Position numbers and translations under genes: made by a program
Part shown: positions 6,744 to 38,447 of the stretch, in pieces
Layout: each line of letters opens with the position of its first letter
How positions within the stretch are numbered: the first letter of the stretch is position 1
Origin: Bacteroidales bacterium
Lineage (GTDB): Bacteria > Bacteroidota > Bacteroidia > Bacteroidales > UBA932
Direction of reading: 5' to 3'
Length of the DNA: 45,321 nucleotides
NCBI GenBank assembly: GCA_028690215.1
Contig: JAQVBQ010000014.1
Span: 1 to 45,321, forward strand
Notes under the pieces: model-generated
What the model was told of the DNA's origin: nothing
Database searches by the model: none
Seen by the model: only the letters and a program-made list of their open reading frames with translations

Positions 6744-8288
6744 ATGGAAATGATTGAAGGTTTTCTCTATAAATCAAGAGATTATAGAACAATTGAGTTA
6801 TGGAAAGATGTAAAAGAGAGTGATTGGAATAATCCATTATGGCAACTAAAGAATTCTATAAAAAGCACGGAAGAGCTGTCAAAAGTCATCAAAATCAATG
6901 TCTTCCAGAAATCTGAAATAGAAAGAGTCATATCCACTCTCAAAAGTGAGGGCAAGGAACCTCTAAGAATTACTCCATATTATGCCACTTTGATGCAGGA
7001 GAATCCTTTTCGTCCTTCAATGTCCAAGGGAGAAAAAGCGGAGAGACGTTTAGATCCCATTTTCTGGCAAAGTGTACCTACACCGGCAAACTTGCTTTTC
7101 CCTAACACAGGATTGGAAGGAGCAATGTCAGAAGGAACCAGGTCATACGGTGCCGCATATCAACGCTATCCAAACAGAGTTGCACTTTTTGTCGCAGAGA
7201 ATACCAGTTGCGCATCATACTGTGTACACTGCCAAAGGGCTAAATCACTTGACGGTACGGTAGAGGTCAGCAAGGAAGAGATTGATAAAGGGCTGTTCTA
7301 TATAGGTTATAATAAAAATATAAACGAAGTGCTTGTGACCGGAGGAGATGCCCTCATGATAAGCCACACAAGGTTAAAGTACATTCTGGAGGAGTTGAGC
7401 AGGATACCTCATCTGAGGGTAATCAGAATAGCTACCCGGGTACCGGTTGTACTACCTATGGCAATCACAGATGAATTACTCACACTTATTGAACTATCTG
7501 CAAACAGGCATACTAAAGGTGTTGCCAAGTATGTCTATTTCATGACCCACATCAATCATTATCAAGAGATCACAAAAGAACTCGCAGAGGCTGTCGGCAA
7601 AATCCGCAAACATGGTTTCACGATAAGAAATCAGACTGTACTACTAAATCATGTAAACGACTACTACAAGACTTTAGCAGAAACATTCAGGAGGATGTTC
7701 TGGATAGGAGTCCACCCCTATTACCTTCTCCAGTGTCATAAAGAGAGGGGAATTGTACATTTCATAACTCCAATACAGATTGGAAAAATTTATATGAAAA
7801 ACCTTCAGGGATGGATGTCCGGTGTGACAGTACCCAGGTATGCCGCCAATGTTGAAGGAGGCGGAGGAAAAGTTGTATTAATGCCGTCAGGGCATGACAC
7901 ACTTAACTCAGAGTCAAGAATTGATGAGAAGATCTCTGAAAGTTTTGCTACAGTTTATACATGGGATGACCGTGAGTTGCACAGATATGAGGCTTTGGGC
8001 CGGGCTACACGTGAAGAGTTCACGGAAGGAGTAAGTATAATGGACCGCTTTATCGGGAGAAAAGGTGTTTTCTTGCCAAAACTCATTATTGTTGATAAAG
8101 ACGGAAATCATATTGAGACAACCAATAGAACAAAACTTCCCTCTCTGGAAAAAATGAAGAAGGCTGAGTTACTCGACTATGCAGTTGATAATAATGGTAT
8201 GCCTGTTACAAATCCTGCTTCTATTAAGGAAAAACTTGACGTAGAATATAAAAAGTCTAAATTTGTCCGGACAAGGGGAAACTCCTGA
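6744..8288 (+). CDS. KamA-family radical SAM aminomutase, glutamate 2,3-aminomutase-like
   Basis: The 514-residue protein has the radical SAM cluster motif CxxxCxxC at Cys156, Cys160 and Cys163, and the family's PLP lysine, Lys376, in EGGGGK. Lysine 2,3-aminomutase of Clostridium holds the substrate side chain with Asp293 (QCD) and Asp330 (VDAPGGGGK). The equivalent positions here are His332 (QCH) and Asn369 (ANVEGGGGK). As I recall, glutamate 2,3-aminomutase of C. difficile has Lys332 and Asn369 at the same numbers, so the protein more likely acts on glutamate or another acidic amino acid than on lysine. The N-terminus is about 39 residues longer than lysine aminomutase, and the C-terminus about 60 longer. 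The product would be beta-glutamate, a known osmolyte. It starts at an ATG about 170 bases from the divergent receptor operon and is followed after 18 bases by a DUF3788 gene. Confidence 0.85.
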   Translation: MEMIEGFLYKSRDYRTIELWKDVKESDWNNPLWQLKNSIKSTEELSKVIKINVFQKSEIERVISTLKSEGKEPLRITPYYATLMQENPFRPSMSKGEKAERRLDPIFWQSVPTPANLLFPNTGLEGAMSEGTRSYGAAYQRYPNRVALFVAENTSCASYCVHCQRAKSLDGTVEVSKEEIDKGLFYIGYNKNINEVLVTGGDALMISHTRLKYILEELSRIPHLRVIRIATRVPVVLPMAITDELLTLIELSANRHTKGVAKYVYFMTHINHYQEITKELAEAVGKIRKHGFTIRNQTVLLNHVNDYYKTLAETFRRMFWIGVHPYYLLQCHKERGIVHFITPIQIGKIYMKNLQGWMSGVTVPRYAANVEGGGGKVVLMPSGHDTLNSESRIDEKISESFATVYTWDDRELHRYEALGRATREEFTEGVSIMDRFIGRKGVFLPKLIIVDKDGNHIETTNRTKLPSLEKMKKAELLDYAVDNNGMPVTNPASIKEKLDVEYKKSKFVRTRGNS

Positions 8289-27822: not shown

Positions 27823-27853
27823 AGGGGGGACAAAATTTTTGTCCCCCTTTTTT
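27823..27853 (+). terminator. Rho-independent terminator of the Sus-type operon
   Basis: GGGGGACAA at 27825-27833 pairs with TTGTCCCCC at 27839-27847 around an AAATTT-type loop and runs into T6. It is nearly symmetrical, with A-runs and T-runs inside the loop. Confidence 0.9.
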
Positions 27854-32400: not shown

Positions 32401-33570
32401 ATGTCTGCTCTAATAATACTTACTATATGTTCACTCCTGCTGATAGCATATCTGTTTGACCTTTCAGCATCCAAAACAAAAATTCCCTCAGTTGTCCTAC
32501 TGCTCCTTCTCGGGTGGGGAGTAAAGCAGATTACCATGGTGGCAGGGATCTCCCTTCCTGACCTAACTCCGATTCTGCCGGGTCTGGGGACAATCGGTCT
32601 TGTACTTATTGTACTTGAAGGATCCCTGGAACTTGAACTCAAGAAATCAAAAATTGCCATAGTCAGGAAATCATTTATAGGCGCTTTTCTCTCAATGTTA
32701 GTGCTTGCATTTGCTATTGCAGTAATCCTTTTTAAATTTAAAGGATATCCTCTTGAGCAATCACTGATAAATGCAATTCCATTTAGTGTTATAAGCAGTG
32801 CTATTGCAATACCGAGCGTAAGATCCTCCCAAGAATCAATACGAGAATTTGCTGTTTATGAGAGCAGCCTTTCCGACATTCTCGGCGTCCTCTTTTTTAA
32901 CTTCATGACGATAAATACGGTAATCGACCTCAATGCCTTCGGCAATTTTGGACTGCAGATACTTGTAATGTTTGTAATATCTCTGGCAACTACCGTTGGC
33001 CTATCCCTTTTCTTGAGCAAGGTAGACCATCATATACGCTTTATTCCGATCATTCTTGTGATATTGCTGGTATATGAAACAACTCATGAATTAAAGCTTC
33101 CATCACTGATTTTTATAATGATTTTCGGTCTATTCCTGGGCAACCTGGAAAAGTTGAGTCAATATAAGTGGACAAGGCACTTCAGGCCTGAGGTGCTCGA
33201 CAAAGAGATCAACAAATTCAGGGAGTTCGTCTCTGAAATCTCATTTCTTGTCAGGGCTCTCTTCTTCATGCTCTTCGGATACCTGATAAAGAGTTCCGAC
33301 ATACTCAACCTTCGCAGCCTTTCCTGGGCACTAATCATTGTCTCTCTAATTTTCCTCATCAGAGCCATACAACTGAAAATTTCCTCCCTACCTCTGAGAC
33401 CTCTGCTTTTTATAGCTCCAAGAGGACTTATTACAATACTTCTTGTACTTTCAATACCTGCTGCACAACAAATACCTCTGATAAATTACTCGTTAATGAT
33501 ACAGGTCGTTGTACTCACATCTTTAATCATGATGGCCGGTCTAATGTTTTCATCTGTCAAAAAGGAGTAA
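32401..33570 (+). CDS. Cation:proton antiporter (CPA family)
   Basis: The 389-residue integral membrane protein has about 11-13 hydrophobic segments. Its organisation resembles the Na+(K+)/H+ exchanger family: an early LIVLEGSLEL segment, a central FAVYESSLSDILGVLFFN segment bearing an acidic residue in the transport core, and a late RPLLFIAPRGLITILL segment containing the conserved arginine. It has no C-terminal RCK/TrkA domain, so it is of the short type. It is the last gene of the 28145-33570 operon. No terminator is visible before the aromatic operon promoter at 33654. Substrate ion and direction cannot be read from sequence. Confidence 0.85.
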   Translation: MSALIILTICSLLLIAYLFDLSASKTKIPSVVLLLLLGWGVKQITMVAGISLPDLTPILPGLGTIGLVLIVLEGSLELELKKSKIAIVRKSFIGAFLSMLVLAFAIAVILFKFKGYPLEQSLINAIPFSVISSAIAIPSVRSSQESIREFAVYESSLSDILGVLFFNFMTINTVIDLNAFGNFGLQILVMFVISLATTVGLSLFLSKVDHHIRFIPIILVILLVYETTHELKLPSLIFIMIFGLFLGNLEKLSQYKWTRHFRPEVLDKEINKFREFVSEISFLVRALFFMLFGYLIKSSDILNLRSLSWALIIVSLIFLIRAIQLKISSLPLRPLLFIAPRGLITILLVLSIPAAQQIPLINYSLMIQVVVLTSLIMMAGLMFSSVKKE

Positions 33571-33653
33571 TTTTTGCTTACATATTATAACTTGTCAAGA
33601 CTGTTGTGTATAAGGACAATCAGGACATTTTTATAAAATATTTTATTTTTTTA

Positions 33654-33683
33654 TTTGACTTTCAAGTTTTTTTTTCACCTTTG
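33654..33683 (+). promoter_or_regulatory. Bacteroidetes-type promoter of the aromatic amino acid operon
   Basis: TTTG (33654-33657), 18 bases, then CACCTTTG (33676-33683) matches the consensus except for the first base of the -7 box. Transcription would start near 33690, about 17 bases before the leader peptide start. Confidence 0.7.
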
Positions 33684-33706
33684 CAGAGAGAAACAAACAC
33701 AGAACA

Positions 33707-33778
33707 GTGAACAACAATTTCGGATATACCTCTTTTTACTTTTTTTATTTCTTTAGAAGTAAAGCGGGGTTGATATGA
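33707..33778 (+). CDS. Aromatic leader peptide (Phe/Tyr-rich, GTG start)
   Basis: The frame has 23 codons from GTG (33707) to TGA (33776-33778). Nine of 23 residues are Phe or Tyr, including the uninterrupted run FYFFYFF at residues 10-16. No ATG precedes the run in this frame, so GTG is the only plausible start. Its position, between the promoter and a terminator/antiterminator pair ahead of pheA, fits a regulatory leader peptide whose translation speed reports the supply of charged tRNA-Phe and tRNA-Tyr. It is similar in principle to the pheA and pheST leaders of enterobacteria. It probably has no function as a protein. Confidence 0.82.
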   Translation: MNNNFGYTSFYFFYFFRSKAGLI

Positions 33779-33807
33779 TGTAAACTGACTGAATACAATA
33801 TTAATTG

Positions 33808-33834
33808 ACCCCGCTGACTCAGCGGGGTTTTTTG
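33808..33834 (+). terminator. Attenuator terminator before pheA
   Basis: ACCCCGCT at 33808-33815 pairs with AGCGGGGT at 33821-33828 around GACTC, followed by a T-run to 33833. It ends 12 bases before the pheA start codon, so transcription must read through it to express the operon. Confidence 0.92.
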
Positions 33835-33845
33835 TTTTATATGCT

Positions 33846-34703
33846 ATGCTGAAAAAAGTTGCAATACAGGGAATCCATGGTGCCTTCCACGAGATAGCAG
33901 CCCAAAGGTATTTCAGGGATTTACCGATAGAGATTGTGGAGTGCGGGACATTTGAAGAGATTACAGAGATGCTCGCAAAGAGAGAGATAGATTTCGGGCT
34001 GATGGCCATTGAGAATACTGTCGCCGGAAGTTTGCTTTCAAATTATGTCCTTCTCAGAGAGAGTCCGGTAAAAATCATTGGAGAGAAGTATCTCAGGATC
34101 AAACAAAACCTTTTGACCCTTCCGGGACAAAAGATTGAGGATATTAGAGAGGTCCACTCACATTTTATGGCAATTAACCAATGCCGGGAGTTCTTCAAAC
34201 ACTATCCATGGATAAAGCTTGTGGAATCTTCAGATACAGCTGTAAGTGCAAGAGAGATAAACCTTAACAGATCCAAAGGAGAGGGAGCTATTGCCAGTGA
34301 ACTTGCAGCCGACATGTATGAGTTAGAGATTCTGGCTGAGGGGATTGAGACAAATAAGCGCAACTATACAAGATTCCTTGTCCTTGCAAACCAGGATGAG
34401 GTTGTAGAGCACTCATGCGAAGCCACAAAAGCATCCCTATGCTTCAGCCTTCCTCACAGAAAAGGGAGCCTTGCCGGTGTTCTGGGAACATTGGCAGAAA
34501 ATGACCTGAATCTGACAAAAATCCAAAGTATGCCAATAATTGGCAAAGAGTTCCGTTACTTCTTCTATGTAGATGTAACATTCAACGATTACTCAAAATA
34601 TCTTCAGAGCATATTCGAGATTAGCCCACAGATAGTAGATTTTCAAATTCTTGGAGAATACACACACGCAATCGAGTCATTGGAAAATGTCCATAATATG
34701 TAA
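33846..34703 (+). CDS. pheA: Prephenate dehydratase
   Basis: The 285-residue monofunctional enzyme converts prephenate to phenylpyruvate, the committed step to phenylalanine. The catalytic domain (about 1-180) contains IENTVAGS (56-62), SSDTAVSA and the TRF motif with catalytic Thr175 (NYTRFLVL). A C-terminal ACT domain (about 195-275; RKGSLAGVLGTLAENDLNLTKIQS) binds Phe for feedback inhibition. The start is the ATG at 33846; an ATG at 33841 in another frame stops at once. It is the first structural gene after the attenuator and is followed after 6 bases by an aminotransferase. Confidence 0.96.
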   Translation: MLKKVAIQGIHGAFHEIAAQRYFRDLPIEIVECGTFEEITEMLAKREIDFGLMAIENTVAGSLLSNYVLLRESPVKIIGEKYLRIKQNLLTLPGQKIEDIREVHSHFMAINQCREFFKHYPWIKLVESSDTAVSAREINLNRSKGEGAIASELAADMYELEILAEGIETNKRNYTRFLVLANQDEVVEHSCEATKASLCFSLPHRKGSLAGVLGTLAENDLNLTKIQSMPIIGKEFRYFFYVDVTFNDYSKYLQSIFEISPQIVDFQILGEYTHAIESLENVHNM

Positions 34704-34709
34704 ATAATC

Positions 34710-35867
34710 ATGATAACACCCGCAAACAGGACCACATTGGTCAACGAATACTACTTCTCGGTCAAGCTCAAAGAGATTGAGCAGATGAACAGAGCCGGGA
34801 AAAAGGTAATAAACCTCGGAATAGGGAATCCGGACATGCCTGCTCCTGTAAATGCCATAGAGGCAATGGCGGAATCAGCCAGAACATATGGCACTAACGG
34901 TTATCAGAGCTATACCGGGATACCTGAACTAAGAGAGGCTTTTTCTGCCTGGTACAGAAAGTACTACAGAGTTGAACTTGACCCGGTAAATGAGATATTG
35001 CCCCTGATAGGATCCAAGGAGGGAATTATGCATATATCAATGGCATTCATCAACCCGAACGACAAGGTTCTGGTTCCTGACCCCGGTTACCCTACATACA
35101 GGGCTGTTTCGCTGATGGTTGGAGCTGAAGTGATAAATTACAACCTAAAGGAGGAGAATGGATGGGAACCCGATTTCGAAGAACTTGAAAAACAAGATCT
35201 TTCAGGTGTCAAACTTATGTGGGTCAACTATCCCAACATGCCGACAGGAGAGCCGGCCAGTTATGGCCTATACCGCAAACTTGTCGATTTCGGCAGAAGA
35301 CACGGAATACTTATCTGCAACGACAATCCCTACAGCTTTATCCTGAACGACAACCCTATCAGCATACTGGAGATAGAGGGATCAAAAGGCATTGTACTGG
35401 AACTTAACTCAATGAGCAAATCACACAACATGGCCGGATTCAGGGTAGGAATGGTCGCCGGGGAGAGCAGCCTCATCAGCTATATTCTTAAAGTTAAAAG
35501 CAATATGGACAGCGGAATGTACAGGCCTTTGCAACTGGCGGCAGTGAAGGCTCTCTCATGCGACAAAGATTGGTATAGCTCTCTGAACGAAGAGTACAGA
35601 AGAAGAAGGAGTCTTGTATGGAAGATTTTTGATGCAACGGGATCCAGTTATGATAGAAATCAGACAGGGATGTTTGTCTGGGCTAGAATACCATCCACAA
35701 CACGCAGTTCAGTAGAGTTTTCAGATAAATATCTTCATGAGAGCAACGTATTCATAACACCGGGCCATATTTTCGGCTCAAACGGTGAGGGATTCGCAAG
35801 GATTTCACTCTGTTGCAATGAAGCCACACTCTCAGAGGCGCTGGAAAGAATCAGTAAAAAGCATTAA
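34710..35867 (+). CDS. Class I/II aminotransferase, probable aromatic aminotransferase
   Basis: The 385-residue PLP enzyme is of fold type I. Visible landmarks are INLGIGNPDMPAP, NGYQSYTGIPELREA, VPDPGYPTYRA, NYPNMPTGEPA and the PLP lysine Lys237 in SMSKSHNMAGFRVGM. The overall pattern is closest to the LL-diaminopimelate/aspartate-type aminotransferases. Its place between pheA and tyrA points to transamination of phenylpyruvate and 4-hydroxyphenylpyruvate, the last step of Phe and Tyr synthesis. That role is inferred from context rather than from residues. Spacing is 6 bases to pheA and 13 to tyrA. Confidence 0.88.
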   Translation: MITPANRTTLVNEYYFSVKLKEIEQMNRAGKKVINLGIGNPDMPAPVNAIEAMAESARTYGTNGYQSYTGIPELREAFSAWYRKYYRVELDPVNEILPLIGSKEGIMHISMAFINPNDKVLVPDPGYPTYRAVSLMVGAEVINYNLKEENGWEPDFEELEKQDLSGVKLMWVNYPNMPTGEPASYGLYRKLVDFGRRHGILICNDNPYSFILNDNPISILEIEGSKGIVLELNSMSKSHNMAGFRVGMVAGESSLISYILKVKSNMDSGMYRPLQLAAVKALSCDKDWYSSLNEEYRRRRSLVWKIFDATGSSYDRNQTGMFVWARIPSTTRSSVEFSDKYLHESNVFITPGHIFGSNGEGFARISLCCNEATLSEALERISKKH

Positions 35868-35880
35868 CAGTTAACAGACA

Positions 35881-36723
35881 ATGGTAATAACAGTCATAGG
35901 ATTGGGGCTGATCGGCGGATCTGCCGCCATAGACCTCAGAAAAAGAGGATTTGCCAATACAATATTGGGAGTCGATAGCGATAAGATAAATGCCAACGGA
36001 GCACTCTCAATCGGATTGGTGGATGAGATCTGTACACTTGAAGATGGCATTAGCAAATCGGATATGATAATAGTAGCCGTTCCTGCCGATGCAGCCGTCA
36101 CACTGCTTCCCAAAGTGCTTGACCTTGCAGAGGGGAAAGTCGTGACAGATGTATGCTCCACAAAAGGGAGAATATGTGAAATCATAAAGTATCACAAGAA
36201 CAGGCGTTGTTATGTTGCCTCCCACCCTATGGCCGGAACAGAATTTTCAGGTCCCTGGGCTGCAATGTCAGGACTTTTTGACGGAAAGAGTGCAATTTTG
36301 TGCGACACAGAAGAGTCTGATATAAAGGCTGTTGCAAAGGTTAAAAGGATGTACGAAACTCTGAATATGAGAATCATATACATGAACAGCACAAATCACG
36401 ATGTCCATGCAGCATATATTTCACACATATCACATATCAGTTCATTTGCTCTGGCACTGACAGTTCTGGAGAAAGAGAGGAATGAGAAGCATATTTTTGA
36501 CCTGGCAAGCGGTGGTTTTGATTCAACGGTAAGACTTGCAAAGAGCTCCCCAGATATGTGGGTACCTATTTTTCATCAGAATAAAGAGAATGTGGTGACC
36601 GTTCTGGATACCTACATCGAGAAACTTCAGAAGTTCCGCACATTGATCAAAGAGGATGAAGGTGAGAAAATCAGGGATATGATTAAAGAATCGAATAGAA
36701 TAAAGGCAGTATTGAAGCATTAA
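35881..36723 (+). CDS. tyrA: Prephenate dehydrogenase
   Basis: The 280-residue enzyme oxidatively decarboxylates prephenate to 4-hydroxyphenylpyruvate on the way to tyrosine. The N-terminal Rossmann fold has VITVIGLGLIGGSAA (2-16) with an acidic residue at VDSD, which suggests NAD+. The substrate site contains SHPMAGTEFSGP. The C-terminal helical dimerisation domain contains HDVHAAYISHISHISSFALAL and DLASGGFDSTVRLAKSSPDMW. No chorismate mutase or ACT domain is fused. It sits 4 bases before the DAHP synthase-chorismate mutase gene. Confidence 0.95.
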   Translation: MVITVIGLGLIGGSAAIDLRKRGFANTILGVDSDKINANGALSIGLVDEICTLEDGISKSDMIIVAVPADAAVTLLPKVLDLAEGKVVTDVCSTKGRICEIIKYHKNRRCYVASHPMAGTEFSGPWAAMSGLFDGKSAILCDTEESDIKAVAKVKRMYETLNMRIIYMNSTNHDVHAAYISHISHISSFALALTVLEKERNEKHIFDLASGGFDSTVRLAKSSPDMWVPIFHQNKENVVTVLDTYIEKLQKFRTLIKEDEGEKIRDMIKESNRIKAVLKH

Positions 36724-36727
36724 GAAT

Positions 36728-37813
36728 ATGGAAAAGATTAACAACTCCCCTTTTGAAGGATGGGGACTAAGCAAACAGGATAGGCCGGTTATGATAGCCG
36801 GGCCGTGCAGCGCAGAGTCGGAAGAACAAGTAATGGATACGGCTGTTCAACTTAAGAGTATCGGAGTAGAGGTATTCCGGGCAGGAATATGGAAACCGAG
36901 GACCAGACCAAATCAGTTTGAGGGGGTCGGAAGCATGGGACTCGAGTGGATGAGGAGGGTTCAAAGAGAGACAGGAATGAAGATATCCACAGAGGTCGGG
37001 AATGTCAAACATGTATACGATGCATTAAGATACGGTGTGGATATTATCTGGATAGGTGCAAGGACAACGGCCAACCCTTTTGCCATGCAGGAGATAGCAG
37101 ATGCTCTCAGAGGAGTGGATATTCCTGTGCTTGTGAAAAATCCCGTAAATCCTGATCTGAACCTATGGATAGGGGCAATCGAGAGGATCAAAGGTGCAGG
37201 AATCAGACATGTCGGAGCCATTCACAGAGGATTTTCAACATTTGACAAAACCCGTTACAGAAATATTCCACAGTGGCAGTTACCGATTGAACTTAAACAG
37301 AGAATACCCGAAATCCCGATGATTTGTGACCCGAGCCATATGGGTGGCAAGAAGGAGCTTCTTCAGGAGATATCTCAGAAGGCTCTTGACCTGAACTACG
37401 ACGGCCTGATGATTGAGTCTCACTGTTACCCGGCAATAGCAAAGAGTGACAGCGAGCAACAGGTAACTCCGGCAGAACTTGCAGCAATAATAGACAAACT
37501 CATCCTAAGAGATGTGAATACCAGCAATCCTCTCTTCCTTCTTACACTAGACGAGCTGAGACAAAAAATCGACATCTGTGATGAGAAACTGATCAGGATC
37601 CTGCACGAAAGGATGTCCATTTCTGAAACAATCGGCCGCTACAAGAAGGAGAACAACATCACAATACTTCAGGCAGGGCGTTGGAAAGATATCGTGGATA
37701 AGATGGTGGAGAAGGGCAAGTCCAATGATCTGAGCGAGGAGTTTGTGAGTAGTGTTTTCAAGGCTATCCACCAAGAATCAATCAATAAACAGACTACAAT
37801 AATGAACAACTGA
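36728..37813 (+). CDS. Bifunctional DAHP synthase / chorismate mutase
   Basis: The 361-residue fusion joins the entry and branch enzymes of aromatic synthesis. Residues about 18-262 form a type I-beta (KDO8P-like) DAHP synthase: MIAGPCSAES with metal-binding Cys27, FRAGIWKPRTRPNQFEGVG, IGARTTANPF, KNPVNPDL and DPSHMGG. Residues about 270-350 form an AroQ-type chorismate mutase (LDELRQKIDICDEKLIRILHERM..., IGRYKKEN). The order synthase-then-mutase is the one known from Porphyromonas and other Bacteroidetes, where the mutase domain also mediates prephenate inhibition. The protein supplies prephenate to both pheA and tyrA of the same operon. aroD follows after 7 bases. Confidence 0.95.
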   Translation: MEKINNSPFEGWGLSKQDRPVMIAGPCSAESEEQVMDTAVQLKSIGVEVFRAGIWKPRTRPNQFEGVGSMGLEWMRRVQRETGMKISTEVGNVKHVYDALRYGVDIIWIGARTTANPFAMQEIADALRGVDIPVLVKNPVNPDLNLWIGAIERIKGAGIRHVGAIHRGFSTFDKTRYRNIPQWQLPIELKQRIPEIPMICDPSHMGGKKELLQEISQKALDLNYDGLMIESHCYPAIAKSDSEQQVTPAELAAIIDKLILRDVNTSNPLFLLTLDELRQKIDICDEKLIRILHERMSISETIGRYKKENNITILQAGRWKDIVDKMVEKGKSNDLSEEFVSSVFKAIHQESINKQTTIMNN

Positions 37814-37820
37814 ACCAGAT

Positions 37821-38447
37821 ATGCTTTGCCGTTCAATAGCAGTAGAGGGCAGTGAAAAGATCCTTTCACTGATAGATGGAGCCGAAATGGCCGAGATAAG
37901 AATCGAAATGAGCAACCTCTCCCCCGACGAGGTAAGGGCTCTTTTTGGAGAACATAGATCACTTATTGCAACATGCCGTCCTGGCAACATCCCTGATGAG
38001 AGAAGAAAAGCACTTCTAAATGCTGCAATAGATGGTGGGGCAGAATGGGTTGATATAGAAATTGAATGTGATAAAGGGTATATGAGAGAGTTGGCAAAAT
38101 ATGCCAAGGCACATGATTGCAAGGTCATTATCTCGTATCACAATTACCAATCAACCCCCGATAAAGAGTATCTGGAGAGAATAATCGAGAAATCGATCTC
38201 AGAGGGTGCCGACCTGGTAAAGATTGCCACGATGTCAAACAATGATAACGACAATTCAACACTTCTCTCTCTTTACAAACCGGGAAGAGCTATCCTCTCA
38301 ATTGGCATGGGAGAGCATGGCAGGGTTACCAGAATCGAAGCCCTGAAAAGGGGAGCTCCATTTACTTTTGTAATTGCTCCGGGCTCACATGAGAGTGCAC
38401 CCGGGCAATATAGCGAAGATGAGATGAAAAAGCTCCTCGGAATCTAA
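37821..38447 (+). CDS. aroD: Type I 3-dehydroquinate dehydratase
   Basis: The 208-residue enzyme dehydrates 3-dehydroquinate through a Schiff base. Expected residues are present: Glu28 (EIRIE), Arg53 (TCRP), Glu80 (VDIE), His107 (ISYHNYQ), Schiff-base Lys134 (LVKIAT), Arg171, and the C-terminal APGQ with Gln196. It is shorter than the roughly 250-residue enterobacterial enzyme, with trimming at the N-terminus and in loops, but no key residue is lost. It is the last gene of the aromatic operon, and its stop codon overlaps that of the convergent ilvE by 3-4 bases. Confidence 0.92.
   Translation: MLCRSIAVEGSEKILSLIDGAEMAEIRIEMSNLSPDEVRALFGEHRSLIATCRPGNIPDERRKALLNAAIDGGAEWVDIEIECDKGYMRELAKYAKAHDCKVIISYHNYQSTPDKEYLERIIEKSISEGADLVKIATMSNNDNDNSTLLSLYKPGRAILSIGMGEHGRVTRIEALKRGAPFTFVIAPGSHESAPGQYSEDEMKKLLGI

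Follow-up and report, generated by a model that had tools for sequence, protein, structure and literature searches.

What sets the expression of the aromatic amino acid operon that begins at position 33846 of this DNA? In the window, by which we mean the whole analyzed stretch of 45,321 nucleotides, pheA (33846-34703, plus strand; prephenate dehydratase with an ACT domain, PF00800 and PF01842) is the inferred first regulated gene. It is followed on the same strand by a class I/II aminotransferase (34710-35867; PF00155), tyrA (prephenate dehydrogenase, 35881-36723; NF006307 above cut-off), a DAHP synthase fused to chorismate mutase (36728-37813; PF00793 and PF01817), and aroD (type I 3-dehydroquinate dehydratase, 37821-38447; PF01487). 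The last of these presumably closes the operon, the next gene being on the opposite strand. Judging from its gene content, the operon supplies both phenylalanine and tyrosine.

Leader-peptide attenuation is a long-established mechanism that is well known in other bacteria, and an earlier note on this DNA had read the region ahead of pheA as a Phe/Tyr attenuator. Taking the sequence comparisons and folding models together, we consider it very probable that a ribosome-mediated transcription attenuator sets the expression of pheA-aminotransferase-tyrA-DAHPS/CM-aroD according to the supply of charged tRNA-Phe and tRNA-Tyr. The evidence consists of the anatomy of the region, its mutually exclusive predicted folds of equal energy, its conservation, and its covariation, and the earlier reading is supported in that the aromatic run, the terminator, and a matching segment 2, the sequence-level predictions that were tested, are all kept.

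A short frame rich in Phe and Tyr codons precedes pheA

Direct reading of the plus strand gave a frame that starts with GTG (33707-33709), continues for 23 sense codons (MNNNFGYTSFYFFYFFRSKAGLI), and stops at TGA (33776-33778). Nine of the 23 codons specify Phe or Tyr, and seven of these are consecutive, forming the run FYFFYFF (33734-33754), the predicted Phe/Tyr sensor; both the coordinates and the counts were exactly those that had been claimed. In an alignment, the position of the start codon was occupied by GTG in two relatives and by ATG in L065. The GTG start is a caveat for translation of the leader in a class whose ribosomes fail to recognize Shine-Dalgarno sequences, according to PMC9976891.

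Upstream of the frame lies a candidate promoter (33654-33683, plus strand), with TTTG at -33 (33654-33657) and CAccTTTG at -7 (33676-33683), the CAnnTTTG of which was invariant in all four aligned loci. It is a fair match to TAnnTTTG, which we take to be the Bacteroidota promoter consensus, and the promoter that had been placed at these positions thus stands as a candidate. Promoter, leader, switch, and pheA follow one another in the order proposed, with every coordinate exact on direct reading. Between the candidate promoter and the first gene there is, as in leader-peptide attenuators, a short frame rich in the amino acids that the operon produces.

The leader region is predicted to fold into mutually exclusive structures

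By sequence, an intrinsic terminator is predicted between the leader and the first gene (3:4, 33807-33835, plus strand), made up of the stem GACCCCGCTGACTCAGCGGGGTT (33807-33829) and a T tract, with a folding energy of -17.5 kcal/mol; 16 nt separate the stem from the pheA ATG (33846). The sequence AGCGGGGT occurs twice, inside the leader frame (33763-33770) and in the 3' arm of the terminator (33821-33828), and both copies share the partner ACCCCGCT (33808-33815), confirming the duplicated arm that had been noticed. The first copy is the core of the antiterminator 5' strand (segment 2, 33763-33781, plus strand), which starts within the leader frame, 8 nt past the FYFFYFF run, and contains the TGA stop. 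ACCCCGCT is in turn the core of the antiterminator 3' strand (segment 3, 33798-33815, plus strand), which covaries in relatives. Finally, a protector hairpin (1:2, 33728-33770, plus strand) is predicted, in which both the purine stretch AGAAGUAAAG (33755-33764) and segment 2 are partners of the aromatic codons.

Folding predictions indicated that before segment 4 exists, the 2:3 antiterminator forms with an energy of -20.0 kcal/mol. Once segment 4 was included, the forced 2:3 pairing (-22.9 kcal/mol) and the terminator state (-23.0 kcal/mol) were predicted to be equal in energy. When the RNA was masked as far as a ribosome standing at the stop codon, the terminator alone remained (-18.3 kcal/mol), while in the absence of a ribosome 1:2 plus 3:4 were predicted, with segment 2 hidden by the 1:2 hairpin. 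The switch proposed earlier was thus upheld as a pair of exclusive, equal-energy predicted folds, but its antiterminator turned out to be longer than 8 pairs, comprising 18 (12, a bulge, and 6). The folds, the covariation, and the placement of segment 2 about 10 nt after the run all point to an antiterminator that uses the 5' arm of the terminator and excludes it.

On this basis, we propose the following mechanism. RNA polymerase would start near 33686-33690, and a ribosome would load on the leader frame. Given sufficient Phe and Tyr, the ribosome would pass FYFFYFF, reach the TGA, and cover segment 2, upon which segments 3 and 4 would form the terminator and transcription would end at about 33835. 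If Phe-tRNA or Tyr-tRNA were short, the ribosome would stall in the run and leave segment 2 free to pair with segment 3 while segment 4 has yet to be transcribed, and the polymerase would continue into pheA. An untranslated leader should terminate by default, because the predicted 1:2 hairpin would hide segment 2. These three states (ribosome stalled, at the stop, or absent) are those of classical attenuation. We infer the transcription start, the stalling, the coupling of ribosome and polymerase, and the response to the amino acids; transcription-translation coupling in this group is an assumption of the mechanism.

Chance controls in the window and the genome

A simple scan of the kilobase found one terminator-like site (33807-33829), compared with a shuffle mean of 0.8, so that this count alone proves little. 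The fold of the 171-nt region, however, lay 4.1 standard deviations below those of 200 dinucleotide shuffles, none of which was equally stable (0/200). In the 2.65-Mb genome, seven consecutive Phe/Tyr codons occur at this locus only. Six consecutive Phe/Tyr codons occur at five distinct places, the reversed control pattern giving 10 matches, and inspection of the other four places revealed no short leader with a terminator in the 160 nt downstream. The aromatic run alone was thus rejected as evidence, six-codon runs being at chance level elsewhere in the genome; the weight lies in the combination of signals and in their conservation. A run of five His codons was found nowhere in the genome, and no phage records resembling 33640-33860 were found.

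The aromatic leader is conserved upstream of pheA in relatives

Regions upstream of pheA were gathered from a family set, an order set, and a named set. In the family, 58 of 149 genomes had a pheA match, and all 58 were read. In the order, 126 of 295 genomes had a match and 28 loci were used; 96 of the 126 places were left out as loci, at least one of which (G022) was already in the family set. The named set consisted of the best 80 of 576 confirmed. Of the 166 upstream regions, 160 were used, three having been dropped as too short and three as duplicates; L145 and L146 were left out as repeats of L002 and L001. A leader was defined as a frame of 8 to 45 codons with at least 5 aromatic codons in 9, located within 300 nt upstream of pheA. 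A leader-like frame in L090, 363 nt upstream, lies past this limit and was scored as a miss.

A leader was present in 124 of the 160 regions, compared with 16 of 160 on the opposite strand and about 10% of dinucleotide shuffles. When at least 6 aromatic codons in 9 were required, it was present in 119/160 regions, compared with 2/160 on the opposite strand and about 1.6% of shuffles. By set, the 5-in-9 threshold was reached in 34 of 55 family, 63 of 77 named, and 27 of 28 order regions; 36 of the 160 regions had no qualifying leader, including 21 of the 55 from the window's own family. Holders include Phocaeicola vulgatus ATCC 8482 (L116), P. massiliensis (L120), Bacteroides xylanisolvens (L129), B. 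finegoldii (L136), B. nordii (L142), and a Parabacteroides (L091).

The leaders start with ATG in 119 cases and with GTG in 5 (n = 124). While the aromatic run is kept, the remaining peptide drifts. All 124 leaders contain both Phe and Tyr, which, together with the gene content, agrees with the earlier suggestion that mixed codons suit an operon making both amino acids. Unlike neighbors (FY or YF) numbered 482, compared with 358 expected from the overall Phe:Tyr proportion, and this alternation may keep U runs from growing long or even out the two inputs.

The gene context of pheA differed between regions with and without a leader. pheA lay at most 120 nt behind another gene in 21 of 32 cases without a leader but in only 19 of 122 with one, as one would expect where pheA has ceased to be the first gene of its transcript. 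The aminotransferase was the next gene after pheA in 97 of 111 loci with a leader and in 9 of 23 without. In four leaderless loci of the family (L010, L012, L014, and L017), pheA stands directly behind a gene whose product ends in DEWVAKLV or DEWVARLV, and the attenuator seems to have been lost or moved.

Segment 2 and the terminator arms change together

A hairpin with a T tract, which the search required, followed 119 of the 124 leaders, and terminators of -10 kcal/mol or better were found after 119/124 leaders compared with 8/620 shuffles. For four of the five loci missed by this search (L045, L062, L118, L138, and L168), another search gave a hairpin. The terminator arms vary by lineage (e.g., GCGGGG, GGGGC, GCAGGA, and TCCGGA), and segment 2 of the leader is altered to match. 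The mean energy of the 2:3 pairing was -14.7 kcal/mol for matched and -10.1 kcal/mol (sd 0.24) for permuted arms, with 0/10,000 permutations as low, although these counts are not probabilities, since the loci, being best pheA matches, are related to each other. A within-locus shuffle control is free of this problem: shuffled segment 2 averaged -8.3, and in 93 of 119 loci no more than 5% of the shuffled versions paired as well as the real one, a level that 26 loci did not reach. The earlier note had asked for an alignment upstream of pheA in related Bacteroidales, and had named free drift of the aromatic codons or pairing segments in close relatives as evidence against attenuation. The run is kept and the arms change together, and with leaders in 124/160 regions and covarying arms, free drift is not what the relatives show.

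We then considered the position of segment 2. It starts within the leader frame in 97 of 119 loci and lies a median of 10 nt (10 to 90% range, 7 to 14) past the end of the run. In the outlier L160, the best segment 2 is about 156 nt away from the run, and this pairing is therefore probably spurious. In contrast to the narrow step between run and segment 2, the end of the stop codon drifts by some 50 nt relative to segment 2 across relatives, and we read this as selection acting on the position of the starved ribosome and not on the end point of the fed one. In many relatives (L015, L116, L129, L142, and others), the stop codon ends 20 to 46 nt past the start of segment 2, so that a ribosome at the stop cannot cover segment 2 everywhere. 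The ribosome-at-stop picture thus fits the window but not every relative, and where the stop lies far past segment 2, timing or the 1:2 hairpin must help termination. Support for the 1:2 hairpin is weaker: its pairing averaged -14.2 when matched compared with -10.3 when shuffled, beating 95% of shuffles in only 51/119 loci; in its permutation test 0/5,000 were as low, a count open to the relatedness of the loci.

Leaders in other orders and outside the class

In other orders of the class Bacteroidia, 40 of 50 pheA places were fetched and 10 were left out. A leader was found in 29 of the 40 at 5 in 9 and in 26 at 6 in 9, compared with 5 and 0 of 40, respectively, on the opposite strand. All 29 leaders contained both Phe and Tyr and all 29 had a terminator, and 0/10,000 permutations reached the matched value of the 2:3 pairing in these loci. 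From outside the class, we read 20 of the 127 genomes with a match. Four of them (G642, G682, G763, and G742; loci L215-L218) carried a leader, with a pheA scoring like the Bacteroidia type, while no leader was found in the other 16 of the 20 genomes read, which have other pheA. These sequences suggest that the leader travels with the operon, with a possible transfer of operon plus regulator.

It is conceivable, and in our judgment only slightly less probable than the contrary, that a single ancestral attenuator controls the operon across Bacteroidia, with a mixed Phe/Tyr run that favors alternation and a near-fixed distance between run and antiterminator, and was carried to a few members of the phylum outside the class. 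If this is true, the attenuator would be a dual-input sensor, responding to Phe or Tyr, unlike the pheL of enterobacteria, which senses Phe only. Transcription and translation would then also be tightly coupled, at least at these leaders, because the attenuator works only with a ribosome close behind the polymerase, here without Shine-Dalgarno signals.

Alternative explanations

The same RNA switch might be operated by a ribosome stopped by its nascent aromatic peptide or by any translation block, for instance, an antibiotic. A general block in the run would likewise free segment 2, and in other bacteria there are small upstream frames by which stalled ribosomes are sensed (PMC12121999). In the relatives, however, the order, length, and flanks of the peptide drift while the Phe/Tyr content is kept. 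Among 52 overlapping close pairs, codons at aromatic positions differed by a single base in 98 cases, of which 40 were synonymous, 38 were Phe-Tyr swaps, and 20 were changes to a non-aromatic residue, and a further 33 codon differences were multi-base; this count is biased, as leaders were picked for aromatic content. Nascent-chain arrest normally needs particular residues, and we regard arrest by the peptide, or a general block, as quite unlikely. A different proposal is that the hairpin is the ordinary terminator of the upstream membrane-protein gene (32401-33570) and the aromatic frame a membrane microprotein or a product of chance. Terminators between two genes are common and the frame is short and hydrophobic, but the hairpin starts 236 nt after the upstream stop with its stem only 16 nt from pheA, and the pairing between frame and hairpin covaries in 119 loci and again in the 29 loci of other orders, which makes this proposal very improbable indeed.

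The short distance between the hairpin and the pheA start codon (16 nt) would also suit control of pheA translation, or a tRNA- or ligand-binding RNA (T-box or riboswitch), in place of termination governed by ribosome position. Yet the hairpin is followed by a T tract, a feature that the search demanded, after 119/124 leaders, and shuffled sequences rarely contain such hairpins. Moreover, the terminator begins at varying distances upstream of the pheA match, about 31 to 250 nt depending on the relative, and scans of the window and 20 relatives brought no Rfam family to its gathering score. We give this explanation hardly any credence and retain ribosome-mediated attenuation.

Relation to known attenuators

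The pheL-pheA attenuator of enterobacteria follows the same attenuation logic. Like the element described here, it (Rfam Phe_leader, RF01859) combines pheA as target, a Phe-coding leader, and a terminator/antiterminator switch; unlike it, the present element has a leader of mixed Phe and Tyr codons, and its operon makes both amino acids. Phe_leader scored 21.7 bits on the element, below its gathering score of 55, and at that score it matched none of 20 relatives and nothing in the element's own genome, while the E. coli control matched. The best sub-threshold Rfam match was Trp_leader (RF00513; 27.7 bits, E 0.00097 in a 351-base search, 33765-33835), which works by the same attenuation mechanism. 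Its score is nonetheless below the gathering score of 41, the leader here has no Trp codon, and the operon is another one. Both sub-threshold scores may mostly reflect the terminator. Bacteroid-trp, a Trp leader-peptide attenuator, belongs to the same phylum as the element but to another operon and another amino acid. It is listed as a cis-regulatory RNA of Bacteroidetes (RF01692) in Table 1 of PMC2864571. At its cut-off of 49 bits it had no match in the window or the genome, while the Bacteroides ihuae control matched. As these scans of the window and the relatives yielded no Rfam family of any kind at its threshold, Rfam membership of the element was rejected, and annotation based on Rfam would miss it.

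An element ahead of pheA has been reported in the phylum before. The section of the Flavobacterium psychrophilum transcriptome study consulted (PMC9723704) describes, ahead of pheA, a structured 5' element shared with other Flavobacteriaceae genera, and "strong clues" for leader-peptide attenuation before amino-acid operons. This element shares with ours the gene, the phylum, and the lack of an Rfam match, and it was found as a transcribed region; that section gives no peptide, switch, or Phe/Tyr sensing and names its presence within the family only. It is probably the same element, which has thus probably already been glimpsed in one family of the phylum. The earlier remark that no experimentally studied case was known for this operon in Bacteroidota needs some qualification in view of that study; a test of the response to Phe/Tyr supply was not found in the literature searched. 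The word pheA was absent from the main text of PMC7366714 (B. thetaiotaomicron, 2020). No published experiment on this locus was found in the literature searched. Comparative surveys by Vitreschak (2004) and Lopatovskaya (2010) reportedly predict attenuation of amino-acid operons. The sequence logic and class-wide range of the element were not found in the literature searched, and the survey of Lopatovskaya may list it.

New here are the sequence-level description of the switch, its dual Phe/Tyr sensor, and its breadth; the element is widespread across relatives but belongs to a known kind of attenuator and is not a new kind. It offers a precise model, open to experiment, of the control of Phe and Tyr synthesis in Bacteroidota, including gut Bacteroides (L129, L136, and L142), Phocaeicola (L116 and L120), and Parabacteroides (L091). 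It also opens transcription-translation coupling in Bacteroidota to testing at a single, clearly delimited site, providing a clean assay of whether the ribosome trails the polymerase closely where Shine-Dalgarno sequences go unrecognized. The loci gathered here are a starting set for a leader-plus-switch model.

Other hairpins in the window

On both strands of the window, 19 hairpins with T tracts were listed, the pheA terminator included; two of the others lie behind a short frame rich in particular amino acids. At 135-178, a strong hairpin with a T tract is preceded by a short Ile/Leu/Val-rich frame (MPIRNWAIVLNQFILIFDNRILL), possibly by chance. On the minus strand, a hairpin with a T tract at 7801-7839 has a weak Ser-rich short frame upstream. 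A strong terminator-like hairpin (GGGGGGACAAAATTTTTGTCCCCCT, -17.4 kcal/mol) lies at 27824-27848.
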